From Cardiobacteriaceae bacterium (GTDB lineage Bacteria > Pseudomonadota > Gammaproteobacteria > Cardiobacteriales > Cardiobacteriaceae): a DNA stretch of 64,000 bases. This document shows, one piece after another, positions 8,224 through 15,241 of the stretch. The stretch's first letter is position 1. Every line of letters begins with the position of its first letter. A program made the translations under genes and the position numbers. The DNA lies in contig JAUNEA010000002.1 in assembly GCA_030525785.1 (NCBI GenBank), positions 124,001-188,000 on the forward strand, given 5' to 3'. Below the pieces are notes generated by a model. The model worked only from the letters and a program-made list of their open reading frames with translations. It did not search any database and was not told the DNA's origin.

Positions 8224-8489
8224 ACCCAAAGCGCTTTGTTCTTTGGAATAAGTCATTTGTGCTTTACTCGGGGCTTTGCCCCGAACCCCAGCAGGGGCAT
8301 GATGCCCCTGCACCCCGCAAAGTATTTTAAAAAGTAAAACCCCCACCAAAACTTTGTTTTGAGTGGGGGTTTTACTTTTTAATGCTCTGGGGTCAAGGGG
8401 TGTAACACCCCTTGTGGGGGCTTGGGGGTGAAACCCCCAAATAAAGAATCAACACCTTATTCCAAAGAATAAAGCGCTTTGGGTTTAAG
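8219..8489. repeat. Nested palindromic element between convergent genes
   Basis: A 34-bp inverted repeat (left arm 8219-8252, right arm 8456-8489, one mismatch) encloses about 200 bp of non-coding DNA. Each arm starts with the stop codon of one of the two convergent genes and contains AAAGCGCTTT. Inside lie further palindromes: CGGGG/CCCCG at 8269-8283, GCAGGGGCAT/ATGCCCCTGC around 8291-8311, an 18-bp terminator stem at 8330-8380, AAGGGGTG/CACCCCTT at 8395-8413, and TTGGGGG/CCCCCAA at 8423-8441. No transposase gene or target duplication is seen. It could be a compound bidirectional terminator or a small non-autonomous repeat. Confidence 0.85.
8330..8380. terminator. Strong bidirectional terminator for secF and hmuV
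   Basis: An 18-bp perfect stem (8330-8347 with 8363-8380) carries an internal CAAAA/TTTTG extension in the loop. The stem has C-runs flanked by A-rich and T-rich ends, so both strands end in a U-rich tail. It sits in the centre of the nested palindrome between the convergent genes. Confidence 0.88.
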
Positions 8490-9246
8490 AGTAGAGTGTG
8501 CCTTGATGGGTGTGGTGGCGGTAGATAGTGGTTTGGTACATGGTTTGTAGATTTGAATCGGTGAGAACTTCATCAGCAGAGCCACATGCAAGGAGTTTGC
8601 CGTCATGTAGTGCAATGAGAGTATCAGCGTGGCGGTGGGCATGGCTTAAATTATGCAACACAACCACGATACTTTTACCCTGTTCTTCAACCAGATATTT
8701 CAAATAGGCAAAGAGCTGACGTTCGTGACGAATGTCGAGATGATTACTAGGCTCATCAAGTAGCAACACAGGGCTATCTTGCATCAGTGCGCGAATGATA
8801 GCCAATCGTTGGCGTTCGCCACCTGAAAGCGAGGAGACGCGTTTATGAGCAAGCGCTTTGAGTTCGAAATGTTCAAAGAGAGCAAGCGCTTTGGTTTCGT
8901 CAGCGCTTGCATGAGTTTGATACCATGCCAAACGTTTGGATACGCCAAGCAACGCGTATTCCAAAGCGCTTAGTGGCAGAGAGAATTGCTCATGTTGCCC
9001 AACCCAAGCAATTTTGCCTTGATTCAAGCAATTGATGACCTTATCGCCTAAACAATGAATATCCCCTTGCAAGCGAGCATTGGGGACATGCCCAAGCAAG
9101 GCATGTAAGAGCGTGCTTTTGCCAGCGCCATTGGAGCCAATAAGGGCAACCAGTTGATGCTGAGGAATACTGAGTTTAGGGATTTCCAATAAGCGCTTTG
9201 CGCCAGCTTGAACGCTTAGCTGATGGAGGGTAAACAAATCAACCAT
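8485..9246 (-). CDS. hmuV: Heme ABC transporter ATP-binding protein
   Basis: A 253-residue ABC ATPase of the iron/B12/heme class, the cytoplasmic motor for HmuU. Walker A is GSNGAGKSTLL (about residues 36-46), the signature is SLSGGERQRLAIIRALMQ, and Walker B is PVLLLDEPSNHLD, followed by the switch His in VVVLHNLSHAH. It overlaps hmuU by 8 bp and ends the hmuSTUV operon. BtuD or FecE identity is formally possible, but the neighbouring HmuS and HmuT point to heme. Its stop codon lies in the right arm of the nested inverted repeat. Confidence 0.9.
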   Translation of the reverse strand: MVDLFTLHQLSVQAGAKRLLEIPKLSIPQHQLVALIGSNGAGKSTLLHALLGHVPNARLQGDIHCLGDKVINCLNQGKIAWVGQHEQFSLPLSALEYALLGVSKRLAWYQTHASADETKALALFEHFELKALAHKRVSSLSGGERQRLAIIRALMQDSPVLLLDEPSNHLDIRHERQLFAYLKYLVEEQGKSIVVVLHNLSHAHRHADTLIALHDGKLLACGSADEVLTDSNLQTMYQTTIYRHHTHQGTLYS

Positions 9247-10222
9247 ATCGCCCTGCCTTCATGAATAGCCAGACAAAGAAAGGGCCTCCCAGTAATGCCA
9301 ACACAATGCCTACAGGTAAATCAATAGGATAACTGATGAGCCGTGCGCTACTATCAATCACCAACAGCATCATTGCGCCCAGCCAGCCCGAATAGAGCAT
9401 CAGCTTTGTTCGTCCACCGCCTTTGATAAGCGCCATCATATTGGGAACCATCATGCCAATGAAACCAATCACGCCTGCCAGAGAGACCGCCGCTCCTGTT
9501 AGCAAAGCGCTTCCGATAACGGTTAGCATACGGGTTTGTTGTACCGAGATGCCCATAGTATGAGCATGAGTTTCGCCAAGCATCAGAATATCGAGCCGTT
9601 TGCCCAGTGGTAACAAAATAATCAAGCCTAATATCATGGAGCCTAAAGCATAGCGAATAGGTACAAAGCCAGCTTCTGCCATGCTACCTGCGAGCCAATT
9701 GGTAGCACTGCGTAACACCAAATCATCGGATAAAAACAGTATCAAGCTGACCAATGCTCCACAAAAAGCGCTTAGGATAAATCCTGTTATCAGCAGCCCT
9801 ACTTTACCGCCACCCCAAAATCGATGGCATAACAAAATAAACCCACAAGCAAACAACGCGCCCAAAAACGCCGCCAAAGGCACACCAATACCTGAAATCC
9901 CTAAGCCCAAAACCACCACCACGCCCAAAGCTGCTCCGCCAGAGGTGCCGATTAAACTGGGGTCAGCGAGTGGATTTTCGAACAATGCTTGCAATGCCGA
10001 GCCACTCACAGCCAAACTCATGCCTACCAATAAAGCACTAACAACGCGAGGATAGCGAATGTTCCACATCATCTCATTGAGATGATAAGGCGCTTTCCAG
10101 GTGCCAAAACCCACGCCTAAAGCTAAGTAAATCAACGCTAAACTTCCAATGAACCACCCAAGCCATAGCAAAGATGGCTTGGGTATGAGAATCAAAGCGC
10201 TTTGGTTTGGCTCGTGATTCAT
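9239..10222 (-). CDS. hmuU: Heme ABC transporter permease, FecCD family
   Basis: A 327-residue polytopic permease of the FecCD/BtuC family with about nine to ten hydrophobic segments. Family motifs are RYPRVVSALLVGMSLAVSGSALQ after the first helix, NPLADPSLIGTSGGAALGVV, and AGVIGFIGMMVPNMMALI near the ATPase coupling region. It is expected to form a homodimer that moves heme from the HmuT binding protein to the cytoplasm. It overlaps hmuT by 4 bp and hmuV by 8 bp, so the operon is translationally coupled. Confidence 0.92.
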   Translation of the reverse strand: MNHEPNQSALILIPKPSLLWLGWFIGSLALIYLALGVGFGTWKAPYHLNEMMWNIRYPRVVSALLVGMSLAVSGSALQALFENPLADPSLIGTSGGAALGVVVVLGLGISGIGVPLAAFLGALFACGFILLCHRFWGGGKVGLLITGFILSAFCGALVSLILFLSDDLVLRSATNWLAGSMAEAGFVPIRYALGSMILGLIILLPLGKRLDILMLGETHAHTMGISVQQTRMLTVIGSALLTGAAVSLAGVIGFIGMMVPNMMALIKGGGRTKLMLYSGWLGAMMLLVIDSSARLISYPIDLPVGIVLALLGGPFFVWLFMKAGRYG

Positions 10223-11016
10223 TGGGCTAAATCATGCAATTGTTTGACTACTTCTGGGCTTTTCAGTTCATAACGTAAAAAGCTATTGGCAGGCCAATAA
10301 TGGACTTGATTGTTTTGAGCTGCGGGGCTTTGAGCAATTTCCTCACGTTGTTTCACCACCTCAATCTCGCCTAAAGCGCTTTTATGATGCTCAGCGATGA
10401 TAATCACATCAGGATTAGCCGCCAGCCAACCTTCACGCGAAAGAGGCTTTAAGCCATCAACGTCAGCTGCATTGATGCCGCCAGCCAGCTTGATGAAGGT
10501 ATCGCCAACGGTGCCACGACCTGCCACAATCCGACCATCGTAACTCAGCAGATAACGTTTGCCTGTTTCGGGTAAGGCTTGCATGCCTTGTTGCCATTGT
10601 TGAGAAAGAGCTTTGGCTTTCTCTGTTTTCCCTAATAGCTCGCCTAATTTTTCAATGCTGTGCACATAGGATTCTAAGCTTTCATCAGGTGCAACATTAA
10701 CCGCATTCACGCCCAAAGCGCTTAGTTTGTCAAAGATATTGTTGGGCAATACCATGTAACTACCCACGACCAAATCAGGCTCTAGCGCCACAATCGGTTC
10801 AACCGTGAGGTTACGATGAACCCCAACACTTGCCACATCTTTGAGGGCAGGATTACGGTTGGTACTATCTTTGCCTACAATGCGCTCTGTACCATCAAGT
10901 TCCACCACAATATCAACCACATCAGGGCTTAAGGTTACAATGCGCTTGACATCAGCTTGCGCAATCCCCAGTGCAAACAAAGCGCTTAGGCTTAAGATTT
11001 TCCACCACGACTTCAT
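10219..11016 (-). CDS. hmuT: Periplasmic heme-binding protein
   Basis: A 265-residue class III substrate-binding protein. Residues 1-21 form a signal peptide ending in GIAQA; its hydrophobic core includes Ser-Ala-Leu encoded by the genome's AAGCGCTT palindrome. Two lobes follow, with typical stretches RIVTLSPDVVDIVVELDG, VEPIVALEPDLVVGS and LSREGWLAANPDVIIIAEH. A YDGRIVAGRGTVGDT segment fits HmuT/PhuT proteins, which use Tyr or His to hold heme. It accepts heme from an outer-membrane receptor that is not encoded nearby. It overlaps hmuS and hmuU by 4 bp each. Confidence 0.9.
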   Translation of the reverse strand: MKSWWKILSLSALFALGIAQADVKRIVTLSPDVVDIVVELDGTERIVGKDSTNRNPALKDVASVGVHRNLTVEPIVALEPDLVVGSYMVLPNNIFDKLSALGVNAVNVAPDESLESYVHSIEKLGELLGKTEKAKALSQQWQQGMQALPETGKRYLLSYDGRIVAGRGTVGDTFIKLAGGINAADVDGLKPLSREGWLAANPDVIIIAEHHKSALGEIEVVKQREEIAQSPAAQNNQVHYWPANSFLRYELKSPEVVKQLHDLAQ

Positions 11017-12149
11017 GCTCCCTCCTTTTTTTCAAACAATTGGCACAGCTCATCAAGTAAAGTATTCCAGCGTGGGCATTGTTCGGAGCCTTCGTGGCGT
11101 TCGCCAAAGAGAGTGATGATGCTGTTGCCATATTTATCAAAGCCTTCAATGGCGGTGGTAAATCCACCATCAACACTGGGGCGCTTGACCCACCATACTT
11201 GTTTCAATGCTTCATCATGAAGATGGAGATTGAAGCCGTTGTGGTCATGGTCAAGAATATTGAACCAGCCACTGGCGCGTTTGAGGGTTTTAACGGTGCC
11301 TGTTTGGATTTGCACCATGCCTGTGTTGCCGACAAAAATCATCACAGGAATTTCTTTCTCAGCCAAATGTTCAAACAAAACCTCAATAACGCTCGGTTGA
11401 AGCGCTTTGCTCATGCCTTCTGGCGCTTGATGGTAACTGCTGGCTCGGTCAAGCTTGTATTGGCTGAGAACGCCATGAAAATCGTGAATATCTTTGAGAT
11501 TGCGCCAATCGTTTTGGAAAGCGCTTTGTTGTTCCGCGCTGAGCTGGTGATAGTGCCAATCGCTTTGTGGAACAATGGATTGTAGTGTGATGCTTGCTTG
11601 GGCTTGGTTGGCGTATTTGTCGCAAAGCGCTTGGAAACGCGCAAGATTTTCAGGACTTTTATCCTGCACAAAGGCTTTGCTCACCGCTTGTCCTAAGTTG
11701 TCGTAAAACTGAATGCTGTAGCTTTGACGTTCAGGATTAACCACTGCCAACATATGAGCCCAGCGTTTGATGAAAATGCGTAAATCCAAACCGCCTTCAT
11801 TGACTGCTAAGCCAAATTGCGGCCCAATCTTGAGGTTGCTGAATGCGCCCAGTTTTTCATGTACGGCAAATTCATTGCGCACAATATTTTCCATCACGCC
11901 GAGCGATTCCAGCTCCATCAGCATTTCTGCACACGCTCCACCCAAATAACGGCTCTCAGGCGATGCCAGCAACAATTGAAATTCGCTCACCCCAAAGCGC
12001 TTTGCGCCTTCAGTCGGGAATAACATGGGGGTTTCTTTTTTGGCATCGAGATATTTCTGCCAAAGCTCTTGGTCTTTGGATTGAGGGTTTAGGGTAATAT
12101 CATGAGGAGCAATAGGATTTTTCTCGATAAGATTAGGATCTGTTCTCAT
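11013..12149 (-). CDS. hmuS: Hemin-degrading/heme chaperone protein HmuS (HemS/ChuS family)
   Basis: A 378-residue cytoplasmic heme-handling protein made of two HemS-type half domains. Recognisable stretches are EGAKRFGVSEFQLLLA and NEFAVHEKLGAFSNLKIGP in the first half, and VMIFVGNTGMVQIQTG with WFNILDHDHNGFNLHL in the second. Members bind heme and release iron or pass heme to other proteins. As first gene of hmuSTUV it probably sets iron-controlled expression. ATG follows AAAGGA with about 10 nt spacing. A TonB-dependent heme receptor would be expected beside it but is missing here. Confidence 0.93.
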   Translation of the reverse strand: MRTDPNLIEKNPIAPHDITLNPQSKDQELWQKYLDAKKETPMLFPTEGAKRFGVSEFQLLLASPESRYLGGACAEMLMELESLGVMENIVRNEFAVHEKLGAFSNLKIGPQFGLAVNEGGLDLRIFIKRWAHMLAVVNPERQSYSIQFYDNLGQAVSKAFVQDKSPENLARFQALCDKYANQAQASITLQSIVPQSDWHYHQLSAEQQSAFQNDWRNLKDIHDFHGVLSQYKLDRASSYHQAPEGMSKALQPSVIEVLFEHLAEKEIPVMIFVGNTGMVQIQTGTVKTLKRASGWFNILDHDHNGFNLHLHDEALKQVWWVKRPSVDGGFTTAIEGFDKYGNSIITLFGERHEGSEQCPRWNTLLDELCQLFEKKEGA

Positions 12150-12270: not shown

Positions 12271-12293
12271 AAAAAAACCCGCAAGTGCGGGTT
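12271..12293 (-). terminator. Terminator of the cheX-like operon
   Basis: AACCCGC/GCGGGTT stem with a 4-nt loop, followed on the minus strand by a run of seven T. It lies 17 bp after the CheX-like gene stop and insulates that operon from hmuS. Confidence 0.9.
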
Positions 12294-12309: not shown

Positions 12310-12774
12310 TCAACTATTAGGATTAAAGGTTAAGCAAATGACCAATGCCGCTTTGTAAGATTTCCATTTCATAGGAATGATGAACGAGCGTGCATCGCGT
12401 TGCAAAATATTTTCATCAGGTAAGCCTTCCACCACATGAGGCACAGAAATTTCAAACTCCTCACCGTATTCTGCGCGCGCGTTACCTGATAAGGTATTGG
12501 CAATCTCGCCTGCAATATCGCGAATCATGGGTTCTGAAGTATCAGGCTCGTTCAGAGAAATCAAAACATGGCGCAGCAAAACTTGGGGTGCGGTGAAATA
12601 AATACAACCATGATAGGGGCCTGTGATGGTAATCACGCCTGAATAATCATAAGCGACAGGTTCGCGGTTGCTTGTGATGTAGGGGGTGGAAACTTCAATA
12701 TCGACTTTATTGACTTCTTTGAAGAAACGGTTAATGCCGTTAATAAAAGTCAGCATATTATCTTCAGTAATCAC
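12310..12774 (-). CDS. CheX-like chemotaxis phosphatase-family protein
   Basis: A 154-residue protein of the CheX/CheC/FliY-related fold. The characteristic ExxN phosphatase signature is visible in IAGEIANTLSGNAR (Glu90, Asn93). CheX proteins dephosphorylate CheY-type response regulators, and this gene directly follows such a regulator. The GTG start at 12774 has GGAG 7 nt upstream and overlaps the regulator gene by 11 bp; an ATG at 12756 is an alternative. It is third in the kinase-regulator-CheX operon and is followed by a terminator. Function as a phosphatase is inferred from family and context. Confidence 0.78.
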   Translation of the reverse strand: MITEDNMLTFINGINRFFKEVNKVDIEVSTPYITSNREPVAYDYSGVITITGPYHGCIYFTAPQVLLRHVLISLNEPDTSEPMIRDIAGEIANTLSGNARAEYGEEFEISVPHVVEGLPDENILQRDARSFIIPMKWKSYKAALVICLTFNPNS

Positions 12775-13141
12775 TAGAATTCTCCATAAGTTCGGTTAAT
12801 GCCTTCAAAAGTGCTTGGTCGCTAAAAGGCTTGGTTAGAAAACCATTGGCTCCATATTCTAACGCTTTAATGCCTGTTTCTTTATCAGAGATGGCGGAAA
12901 CCACCAAAATTTCTATTTTTGGATTGATTTTAATCAGATTTTGAATACACTCAACGCCATTCATCATCGGCATATTTAAATCCATCGTCACCACATCAGG
13001 CTGATATTGGCGAAACATTTTGATAGCTTCTAAGCCATTTTTGGCACGGCAAACCACGTTAAATTTGCCCTGTAAAGCGGGAGAACGGGCAATTTTGTTG
13101 CGTATGATGATGGAATCATCAACCACCATTAATTGATACAT
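12764..13141 (-). CDS. Single-domain response regulator, CheY-like
   Basis: A 125-residue receiver domain with no output domain. The acidic pair Asp8-Asp9 is in VVDDS, the phospho-acceptor Asp54 in VVTMDLNMPMMNG, the conserved Ser in VVSAISDKE and the Lys in LTKPFSD. It should be phosphorylated by the CheA-like kinase encoded just upstream and act by protein contact. No flagellar genes are in the window, so the target is unknown; type IV pili or an enzyme are possibilities. It overlaps the CheX-like gene and starts 21 bp after the kinase stop. Confidence 0.88.
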   Translation of the reverse strand: MYQLMVVDDSIIIRNKIARSPALQGKFNVVCRAKNGLEAIKMFRQYQPDVVTMDLNMPMMNGVECIQNLIKINPKIEILVVSAISDKETGIKALEYGANGFLTKPFSDQALLKALTELMENSSDY

Positions 13142-13162
13142 AAATTCAATGCTCTCAATAGT

Positions 13163-15241
13163 TTAAGAAAAACGAATATGGAAGCGAGTATAAGCGCCAG
13201 CTTCACTTTCAATCCCTAGCTTACCATTAATGGCTTGCAAACGCTCGCGCACCGCGCCCATGCCCACGCCTTGCCCTGCATCTTCTGTGACATGTACAGC
13301 CGTTGAAAATCCTGACACAAACAAAATCGGGTAAAGTGCTTTGGGGCTAAGCGCTTTGATGTCTTGCCCCATAAATTCAGGTAAAACAGCAGCTTTTTCA
13401 CGCAAAGCTTCGAGATTGATGCCTGCGCCATCATCAGATACGCAAAGCTCAAATTGTTCTCCATGCGCATTGAGTTCAATATGAACCACACCTTCAGGAT
13501 TTTTGCCGATGGCTTTGCGTTGTTTGGGGTTTTCAATACCATGAACAATAGCATTGCGAACCAATTGAATCATAATCTCTTTGAGGATATCGAGTTTATC
13601 GTTATCTAAAGTATGCTGGTCAAAGCCAGCCATTTCTAAAGTCACCAATTTTCCTTGTCTGGTGGCAATATCTTGGCTGAATTGCTCGAAATATTGCATC
13701 AGTAATGAAGCATTGTTTTCGGTTGCTTGATGAATTTCACGCGCCAATTGTTCAGCATTTTCTACTTTAATACCACCTAAGCGTTTTAAAAGTTGCTCTG
13801 TTTTTTCTACGCTACTCATCAAATCTTCTAAATCGATGGTAAAGCCGAAGAAATCGTTACCACGTAAATGTTCTTGTTTGCTGAGAATTTGCAATTTATC
13901 TTCCATTTTCGTGGTTAGATTGACAAACAAGCGCAAATCCAAAGCAGATGCTTCGCCTTTAAGCAAATGTGCTTCGCGGAATAAGTCTTCAATTTTGCTT
14001 CGGAAATCAATTGAGCGTAAAGCAGGGCGGCGCAAAATGCCGTTCATTCGATTAGAGCCAGCCACCACATTGCGAATAAAACTTTCCAGCAGTTGATGGT
14101 CTACGCGTAAAATGGTTGTTAGCATTTCCAGCTGCATATCGCTGTGTTCGCGTTCATTTTCTAAGCGCTTTTCGGTGGTGATGTTTTCTGTGGTATCGCG
14201 GACACTGGCTAAAATTCCCGTGATTTTTTTGCTTTCTGCATCAATCACTCGGCGAAATTGGAAGCTTAGCCAGCGATCTTCGCCATCTGCTTGTCGCACT
14301 TGAATATTGTTCAAAGGATTTAAATCGCCAATTAAATTTTGCTTGATGCGAGGATTTAAAACTTGCTTCAAAAATCGTTCTAAAAGTTGAATTTGGCTTT
14401 TGGGAACTAAATCATCAAGAACATGATACAAATTCATTTGATGGCGTGGCTTGAATTGAACATATTGATGAAGCGCTTTGGAATATTGGGTAGAAACGTT
14501 AAAATTCAAATCAATTAAGAATAATCCTTCATGAACACTGTCTAAAATAGACTGGTAATCCTGATGGATAGTCATCATTTCTTGGTCTTGCTGACGTAAA
14601 CGGCGTATAAAAATAAAAAACAGTAGGAATAAATAAAGAATGGCAATAAAAATTCTGGTTACCATGATGATATTTTGTGCCAGCTCGCTATCGCCAGCTG
14701 ATTGAGTGACCAACGTATTTAAAAGGCGATAATAGCTTATCAATAAATCTACATGGGTATCTACTTCTAAAAGTTTATAACGTAAGGTATCATCATAAGG
14801 GAAAGCGCTTTGGCTCAATAAAGGAGATACTTTACTTTGGGTGGCTTTCCATTCTGTGAGAATACTGTTAATAAGATTGTTATTATCTAATTCTTGCAAG
14901 GAGCCAAGTCGGAAATTGTATTGATAGACTTTCATACCTTGTTCTAATTCTTGAATCAAAGCATGAATATAATTAACTTGGTTATTCAAATTATCCATTA
15001 AGGTAGCTGTGATGGCTTCTTGTGGCTTTTCGCTCATGTGCAACAACGCATCATGGGTGGATTTGTCCAAATCCATGAGATGATAAGCAGTGGTGATAAG
15101 CTTGTTTTGGATTTCATGGTTGTGGTTGTTGGTATGTGCAAAAAATTGTTGTGCACCAAAGAAGATGAGCAACGAGAAGATGAACAATATCGAGCTGATG
15201 ATGATGCCACGATAGCGTTTTTTCCAAGAATTTTGAATCAT
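13163..15241 (-). CDS. Membrane-bound CheA-like histidine kinase with PAS and Hpt-type domains
   Basis: A 692-residue sensor kinase of unusual layout. Transmembrane helices lie at about 12-31 and 191-212 and enclose a helical periplasmic sensor domain. A PAS domain spans about 225-355 (DGEDRWLSFQFRRVID). A helical Hpt-like region follows, with the phospho-His425 in FREAHLLKGEAS. The C-terminal ATPase is of CheA type: N box LVRNAIVHGIENPKQRKAIG (Asn563), SDDGAGI and GQGVGMGAVRERL. No CheW-like P5 domain is present, so it should not couple to classical chemoreceptors; the periplasmic and PAS domains are its own sensors. It is first gene of a three-gene operon with CheY- and CheX-like proteins. 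The signal is unknown. Confidence 0.85.
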   Translation of the reverse strand: MIQNSWKKRYRGIIISSILFIFSLLIFFGAQQFFAHTNNHNHEIQNKLITTAYHLMDLDKSTHDALLHMSEKPQEAITATLMDNLNNQVNYIHALIQELEQGMKVYQYNFRLGSLQELDNNNLINSILTEWKATQSKVSPLLSQSAFPYDDTLRYKLLEVDTHVDLLISYYRLLNTLVTQSAGDSELAQNIIMVTRIFIAILYLFLLFFIFIRRLRQQDQEMMTIHQDYQSILDSVHEGLFLIDLNFNVSTQYSKALHQYVQFKPRHQMNLYHVLDDLVPKSQIQLLERFLKQVLNPRIKQNLIGDLNPLNNIQVRQADGEDRWLSFQFRRVIDAESKKITGILASVRDTTENITTEKRLENEREHSDMQLEMLTTILRVDHQLLESFIRNVVAGSNRMNGILRRPALRSIDFRSKIEDLFREAHLLKGEASALDLRLFVNLTTKMEDKLQILSKQEHLRGNDFFGFTIDLEDLMSSVEKTEQLLKRLGGIKVENAEQLAREIHQATENNASLLMQYFEQFSQDIATRQGKLVTLEMAGFDQHTLDNDKLDILKEIMIQLVRNAIVHGIENPKQRKAIGKNPEGVVHIELNAHGEQFELCVSDDGAGINLEALREKAAVLPEFMGQDIKALSPKALYPILFVSGFSTAVHVTEDAGQGVGMGAVRERLQAINGKLGIESEAGAYTRFHIRFS

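Follow-up and report, generated by a model that had tools for sequence, protein, structure and literature searches.

CheA, which is built from the domains P1 to P5, works together with chemoreceptors and CheW. In a survey of 13,673 CheA proteins the CheW domain was present in 100 % of them and was treated as a core domain (PMC10542144). The Pil-Chp system (PilGHIJ-ChpA) comprises the giant CheA-type kinase ChpA, receiver-only proteins, a separate methyl-accepting chemotaxis protein (MCP; PilJ) and a CheW (PilI). PilJ-type sensor domains are found elsewhere in NarX, a HisKA-type kinase, and in McpN, an MCP. Finally, phosphatases of the CheX/CheC type, including the CheX proteins of Thermotoga, Borrelia, Vibrio and Shewanella, share a characteristic fold, an ExxN motif and a CheY-like partner.

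Here we describe a three-gene locus in a 64,000-nucleotide stretch of a Cardiobacteriaceae genome (hereafter the window), which encodes a CheA-like kinase, a CheY-like receiver and a CheX-like protein. Like CheA, the kinase has a P1-type Hpt domain, a P4-type ATPase domain and a receiver-only partner; unlike CheA, it carries its own transmembrane sensor and a PAS-like domain, and has neither P5/CheW nor a recognizable P3, whilst its loci have no MCP or CheW gene nearby. As the CheW domain is universal in the surveyed CheA proteins and absent here, these kinases do not belong to CheA in the sense of that work (PMC10542144). The CheX-like protein has the fold, motif and partner of the known phosphatases, but shares an operon with a sensor-fused kinase rather than belonging to a chemotaxis cluster. 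With Pil-Chp the trio has in common a CheA-type kinase, a receiver-only protein and, in the kinases of relatives, a PilJ-type sensor; the separate MCP, the CheW and the giant ChpA are features of Pil-Chp only, which in the home family forms a cluster of its own. A sensor-fused CheA-like kinase accompanied by CheY and CheX was not described in the non-subscription literature searched. Of two candidate precedents, Vibrio MotV/MotW (PMC8789113) proved to be unrelated, and Geobacter Esn (PMC5585712) is a different system, as it uses an MCP and CheW. Given that the same trio is found in the same order across many proteobacteria, it seems to be an autonomous signalling circuit that has so far gone undescribed, and we put the probability that it is a complete stand-alone one, in which a membrane kinase acts through a CheY-like messenger and a CheX-like protein erases the signal, at roughly 0.8.

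Organization of the locus

The initial annotation had proposed an operon that encodes the kinase together with a receiver-only regulator and a CheX-like phosphatase. The ORF list places all three genes on the minus strand at the positions proposed, and profile searches agree with their identities, the phosphatase activity being a prediction. The features are as follows.

13163..15241, minus strand: sensor-fused CheA-like histidine kinase, 692 aa (ORF; Pfam HATPase_c and Hpt; CheA P4 in PDB, 3e-23; AF2 model)
12764..13141, minus strand: CheY-like receiver-only response regulator, 125 aa (Response_reg, 9e-27)
12310..12774, minus strand: CheX-like putative phosphatase, 154 aa, GTG start (PF13690, 1.9e-18; AF2; Foldseek)
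12276..12293, minus strand: intrinsic-terminator-like stem-loop and T run, directly 3' of the CheX stop (hairpin scan)

The kinase and receiver genes are separated by 21 nt, and the GTG start of CheX overlaps the final codons and stop of the receiver. The hairpin after CheX has a 7-pair stem with five G-C pairs, and terminator-like matches in this region are as numerous as expected by chance. On the basis of the overlap, the short gap and the hairpin, the unit is most readily interpreted as a closed operon of three genes. Directly downstream, on the same strand and on the far side of the hairpin, lies a haem-uptake-like cluster (window positions 8485-12149) comprising a HutX-like protein, a binding protein, a permease and an ATPase; elsewhere this cluster is not conserved beside the trio.

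Distribution and gene order

A search of the genome collection for the same triad, as the initial annotation had suggested, returned 30 loci from the Neisseriaceae, Cellvibrionaceae, Oceanospirillaceae, Spongiibacteraceae, Rhodocyclaceae/Zoogloeaceae, Comamonadaceae and others. In 28 of these the order kinase, receiver, CheX is kept on one strand (a count that includes L049, where the kinase is two ORFs). No collection locus matched the MCP or CheW profiles, nor was any additional neighbour gene generally conserved beside the trio, and hence the surroundings give no clue to its output. Within the home order, kinase and CheX were found in the very same eight of 32 genomes (Fisher p about 1e-7, ignoring the relatedness of the genomes); two further weak kinase matches among the 32 were a giant ChpA-like frame and a 600-aa frame. 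The home family contributes four complete trios besides the two of the home genome. In a class-wide sample the kinase was present in 12 of 369 genomes, including G005 and the home genome; 17 loci were newly retrieved from this sample, of which 13 contained the full trio in the same order. L110-L112 and L114 hold more distant kinases without partners. Searching the plasmid collection gave only partial matches, mostly to the ATPase domain of ordinary CheA.

The distribution is thus sporadic but widely spread, and with the trio recurring in dozens of genomes, chance can be excluded as the origin of the arrangement. Linkage is not obligatory, as CheX is not adjacent to the kinase in the home paralogue locus L021 or in L035, and in genomes G010 and G011 it lies on a separate contig. 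In two loci (L049:5548-7715 and L103:521-3080) separate ORFs encode parts of the kinase, with the receiver and CheX intact, and one of the breaks falls between the Hpt and ATPase parts; these represent either a natural split kinase or a sequencing error. Locus L020 (1486-2517) encodes a 343-aa protein in which a receiver domain precedes a long, coiled-coil-like stretch; a hydrophobic segment at its C terminus raises the possibility that it is a tail-anchored receiver.

Three systems in the home genome

The 1.6-Mb home genome holds two full trios, one in the window and one on contig C2 (locus L022), together with a third system on contig C15 (locus L021) that consists of a kinase-receiver pair without CheX. 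Their receivers account for three of the eight receiver matches in the genome. In the kinase tree, in which some branches are long, the three home kinases do not cluster together: that of the window groups with kinases of G008/G009, that of C2 with a Conchiformibius kinase, and that of C15, with weak support, among other Neisseriaceae kinases. Scattered in this way, they look like old, separate lineages. An ATPase beside PilT/PilU at C9:99517, considered as a fourth kinase, is most likely ParE, judging by its size and neighbour.

The palindrome CAAAGCGCTTTG occurs throughout the home genome, with 51 copies in the 64-kb window (e.g. at 2245, 8227, 15573 and 24093) against 0.2 expected from an order-3 Markov model. 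It often lies within genes, where it reads Gln-Ser-Ala-Leu, and hardly occurs in relatives; in L085 (G008), however, a related palindrome, ATAAGCGCTTAT, with the core AAGCGCTT, is common. The repeat resembles the highly iterated palindromes of cyanobacteria, and no relevant paper on it was found in the literature searched.

Domain structure of the kinase

Hydropathy analysis, AF2 modelling and profile and fold searches divide the kinase as follows.

15131..15217, minus strand: transmembrane helix 1, residues 9-37 (hydropathy)
14687..15130, minus strand: outer helical sensor region, residues 38-185, probably periplasmic (AF2 helices; PilJ census)
14591..14686, minus strand: transmembrane helix 2, residues 186-217 (hydropathy)
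14186..14545, minus strand: PAS-like domain, residues 233-352 (PAS_4, E 0.008; TIGR00229; AF2 mixed alpha/beta)
13787..14098, minus strand: Hpt domain, residues 382-485 (AF2 helices; CheA P1 structure 1tqg, 4e-9 with the family profile)
13967-13969, minus strand: predicted phospho-acceptor His425 (invariant; Hpt helix position)
13169..13708, minus strand: CheA P4-type ATPase domain, residues 512-691 (Foldseek 1i58_B; invariant residues)

A periplasmic sensor and a PAS domain had both been ascribed to this protein. The former is supported, in that there are exactly two hydrophobic stretches and the ∼150 residues between them are predicted to be helical; the latter is weak by sequence, its PAS_4 match being below the Pfam cut-off and TIGR00229, at 22.2 bits, falling short of its cut-off of 22.9. 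The whole-kinase model (mean pLDDT 78) has a low pTM (0.47), such that the arrangement of its domains is not reliable.

For the Hpt domain, which had been suspected around His425, the model of this region predicts a bundle of helices at residues 382-404, 410-433, 437-454 and 461-505, with His425 in the second. The Pfam Hpt profile matches all 29 related kinases; its score for the window kinase (2.8e-4) is just under the cut-off, and those of both home-genome paralogues are above it. Moreover, a profile built from the 29 kinases finds CheA P1 structures, and His425, K428 and G429 are invariant among them. The CheA-type ATPase assignment is supported by a HATPase_c match of 2.7e-12, identification as CheA P4 by sequence, and a fold that superimposes on CheA P4 1i58_B with a TM-score of 0.87 and an rmsd of 1.9 Å. 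The residues of the N, G1 and G2 boxes (N563; D603, G605 and G607; G656, G658 and G660) are invariant in the 29 kinases.

The protein stops after P4 and, as the initial annotation had noted, has no CheW/P5 domain; none was found in the 29 relatives either. Nor did any of the 29 match the P3 dimerization domain (PF02895), and only 18-37 residues separate the positions corresponding to 484 and 512.

Sensor region and associated binding proteins

The PilJ domain (PF13675), which is also that of NarX and McpN, is the sensor in 23 of the 29 related kinases; no match was obtained for the window kinase or its two paralogues. When the kinase family profile was compared with structures, a weak match to the PilJ domain of a chemotaxis transducer (6gcv, E 0.002) was found. 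The three home kinases have lost the PilJ/NarX-type signature, and the sensor region of the window kinase has diverged.

In the home family and in Conchiformibius, six kinases have genes for periplasmic binding proteins (Peripla_BP_4), in one to four copies, just upstream of them:

L022:8922-11363: Peripla_BP_4 genes directly beside the kinase
L035:2-976: one or more Peripla_BP_4 genes directly beside the kinase
L084:4854-5894: one or more Peripla_BP_4 genes directly beside the kinase
L087:5854-9366: one or more Peripla_BP_4 genes directly beside the kinase
L089:2986-8000: one or more Peripla_BP_4 genes directly beside the kinase
L091:4485-5500: Peripla_BP_4 gene directly beside the kinase, as two ORF fragments

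No transporter genes were noted beside them in the stretches read, and the two home proteins start with lipoprotein-type signals, as read by eye. We infer that these proteins may present the kinase with a ligand, which could be a sugar.

Relation to chemoreceptors and the Pil-Chp system

In agreement with the initial annotation, which had reported no receptors or CheW nearby, no CheW or MCP gene was found in the window; the same was true of the rest of the 94 %-complete home assembly. Several family members that carry the trio also have a Pil-Chp cluster flanked by accA and trxB, and in four relatives (G005, G006, G008 and G012) this cluster is at a separate locus, with the trio standing alone. 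Of the two flanking genes accA is normally essential, and both are normally present in such bacteria. The home assembly (G000) yielded no good match to accA and only a distant one (30 %) to trxB, and a Pil-Chp cluster was found neither at its contig ends nor in the tilS-pyrG region. As the flanks are missing along with the cluster, the whole accA-chp-trxB block probably fell in an assembly gap. We therefore make no claim that the organism is free of chemoreceptors, and a genome-wide loss of chemoreceptors and Pil-Chp with expansion of the trio system is an unsafe conclusion.

Taken together, the gene neighbourhoods and the four relatives with separately located Pil-Chp clusters indicate that the trio is a system additional to Pil-Chp. 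The kinase could nevertheless be a side input to it, with phosphoryl groups or the receiver feeding PilG/PilH or the pilus motors and CheX serving as the phosphatase that Pil-Chp lacks. The presence of the retraction genes PilT/PilU in the home genome and of PilT in all eight trio-bearing genomes of the order would fit such a link, as would the family members with both systems and the prevalence of PilJ as the sensor type of related kinases. However, retraction ATPases occur in 31 of 32 genomes of the order regardless of the trio, making this co-occurrence uninformative, and the trio has a receiver of its own, was not next to pil genes in any locus read, and is lacking in G002-G004 and G007, all of which have CheW. 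We consider a side input to Pil-Chp unlikely, whilst regulation of type IV pili is a candidate output of the trio.

Receiver and CheX

The catalytic positions of the two smaller proteins are as follows.

12980-12982, minus strand: receiver D54, predicted phospho-acceptor (invariant)
12505-12507, minus strand: CheX E90, predicted catalytic (ExxN motif)
12496-12498, minus strand: CheX N93, predicted catalytic (ExxN motif)

The receiver is a single domain with the acidic pocket, Asp, Ser/Thr and Lys of its kind and without an output domain; D8, D9, D54, S82 and K104 are invariant in 24 sequences. For CheX, whose PF13690 match is above the cut-off, all 13 of the best Foldseek rows for the AF2 model (pLDDT 89) were CheX or CheX-type CheC-like proteins. 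Among solved structures, those of CheX, the Borrelia CheX-CheY complex among them, ranked above CheC and FliM. Conservation of the ExxN motif in orthologues, on which the phosphatase assignment had been made to depend, is complete (26/26). A role for CheX as an effector or adaptor that binds the phosphorylated receiver, with the kinase itself controlling dephosphorylation, is suggested by a fold that is common to FliM and CheC and by the one home system that does without CheX; set against the invariance of the catalytic Glu and Asn and the closeness of its fold to CheX structures, it strikes us as improbable. That the trio is an ordinary CheA chemotaxis system decaying after loss of its receptor genes, as the missing CheW and MCP of the home assembly might imply, we regard as extremely improbable, given that this gap is probably one of assembly and that the sensor-fused, CheW-less kinase recurs across many families with intact catalytic residues.

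A proposed signalling circuit

The initial suggestion of a minimal circuit of kinase, regulator and phosphatase, with sensing built into the kinase, is supported by the predicted Hpt bundle, the ExxN conservation and the recurrence of the triad. Reasoning from these sequences and models, we propose that the membrane kinase uses its outer helical domain for sensing, perhaps together with the PAS-like domain; in one subgroup, the ligand would probably be presented by membrane-anchored periplasmic binding proteins. Sensing would then drive phosphorylation of His425 by the kinase's own P4-type ATPase domain. This would probably occur in trans, within a dimer that may be held by the transmembrane/PAS part, as no P3 domain was recognized. 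From His425 the phosphoryl group would pass to Asp54 of the receiver, and CheX would erase the signal using Glu90 and Asn93. As the receiver has no output domain, its phosphorylated form would act through protein-protein contact with a partner, and chemoreceptor arrays, CheW and methylation would all be dispensable.

Going beyond the single locus, we lean towards the view that these proteins are a separate class of sensor kinase. In such a kinase, a transmembrane sensor would drive CheA P1 and P4 directly, with no P3, P5, CheW or arrays involved; together with the receiver and CheX, the kinase would make up a portable three-gene circuit whose input may be swapped, as between PilJ-type sensors and periplasmic-binding-protein partners.

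CheA is considered to depend on CheW and chemoreceptors for its control. If the proposed circuit is correct, a CheA catalytic core wired straight to a membrane sensor would show how array-free regulation can work, and this would bear on whether such one-protein sensors were the origin of chemosensory systems or the product of their decay. The hosts of the trio include non-flagellated oral Neisseriaceae, and so small and methylation-free a circuit points to an output that may be controlled by a diffusible receiver.
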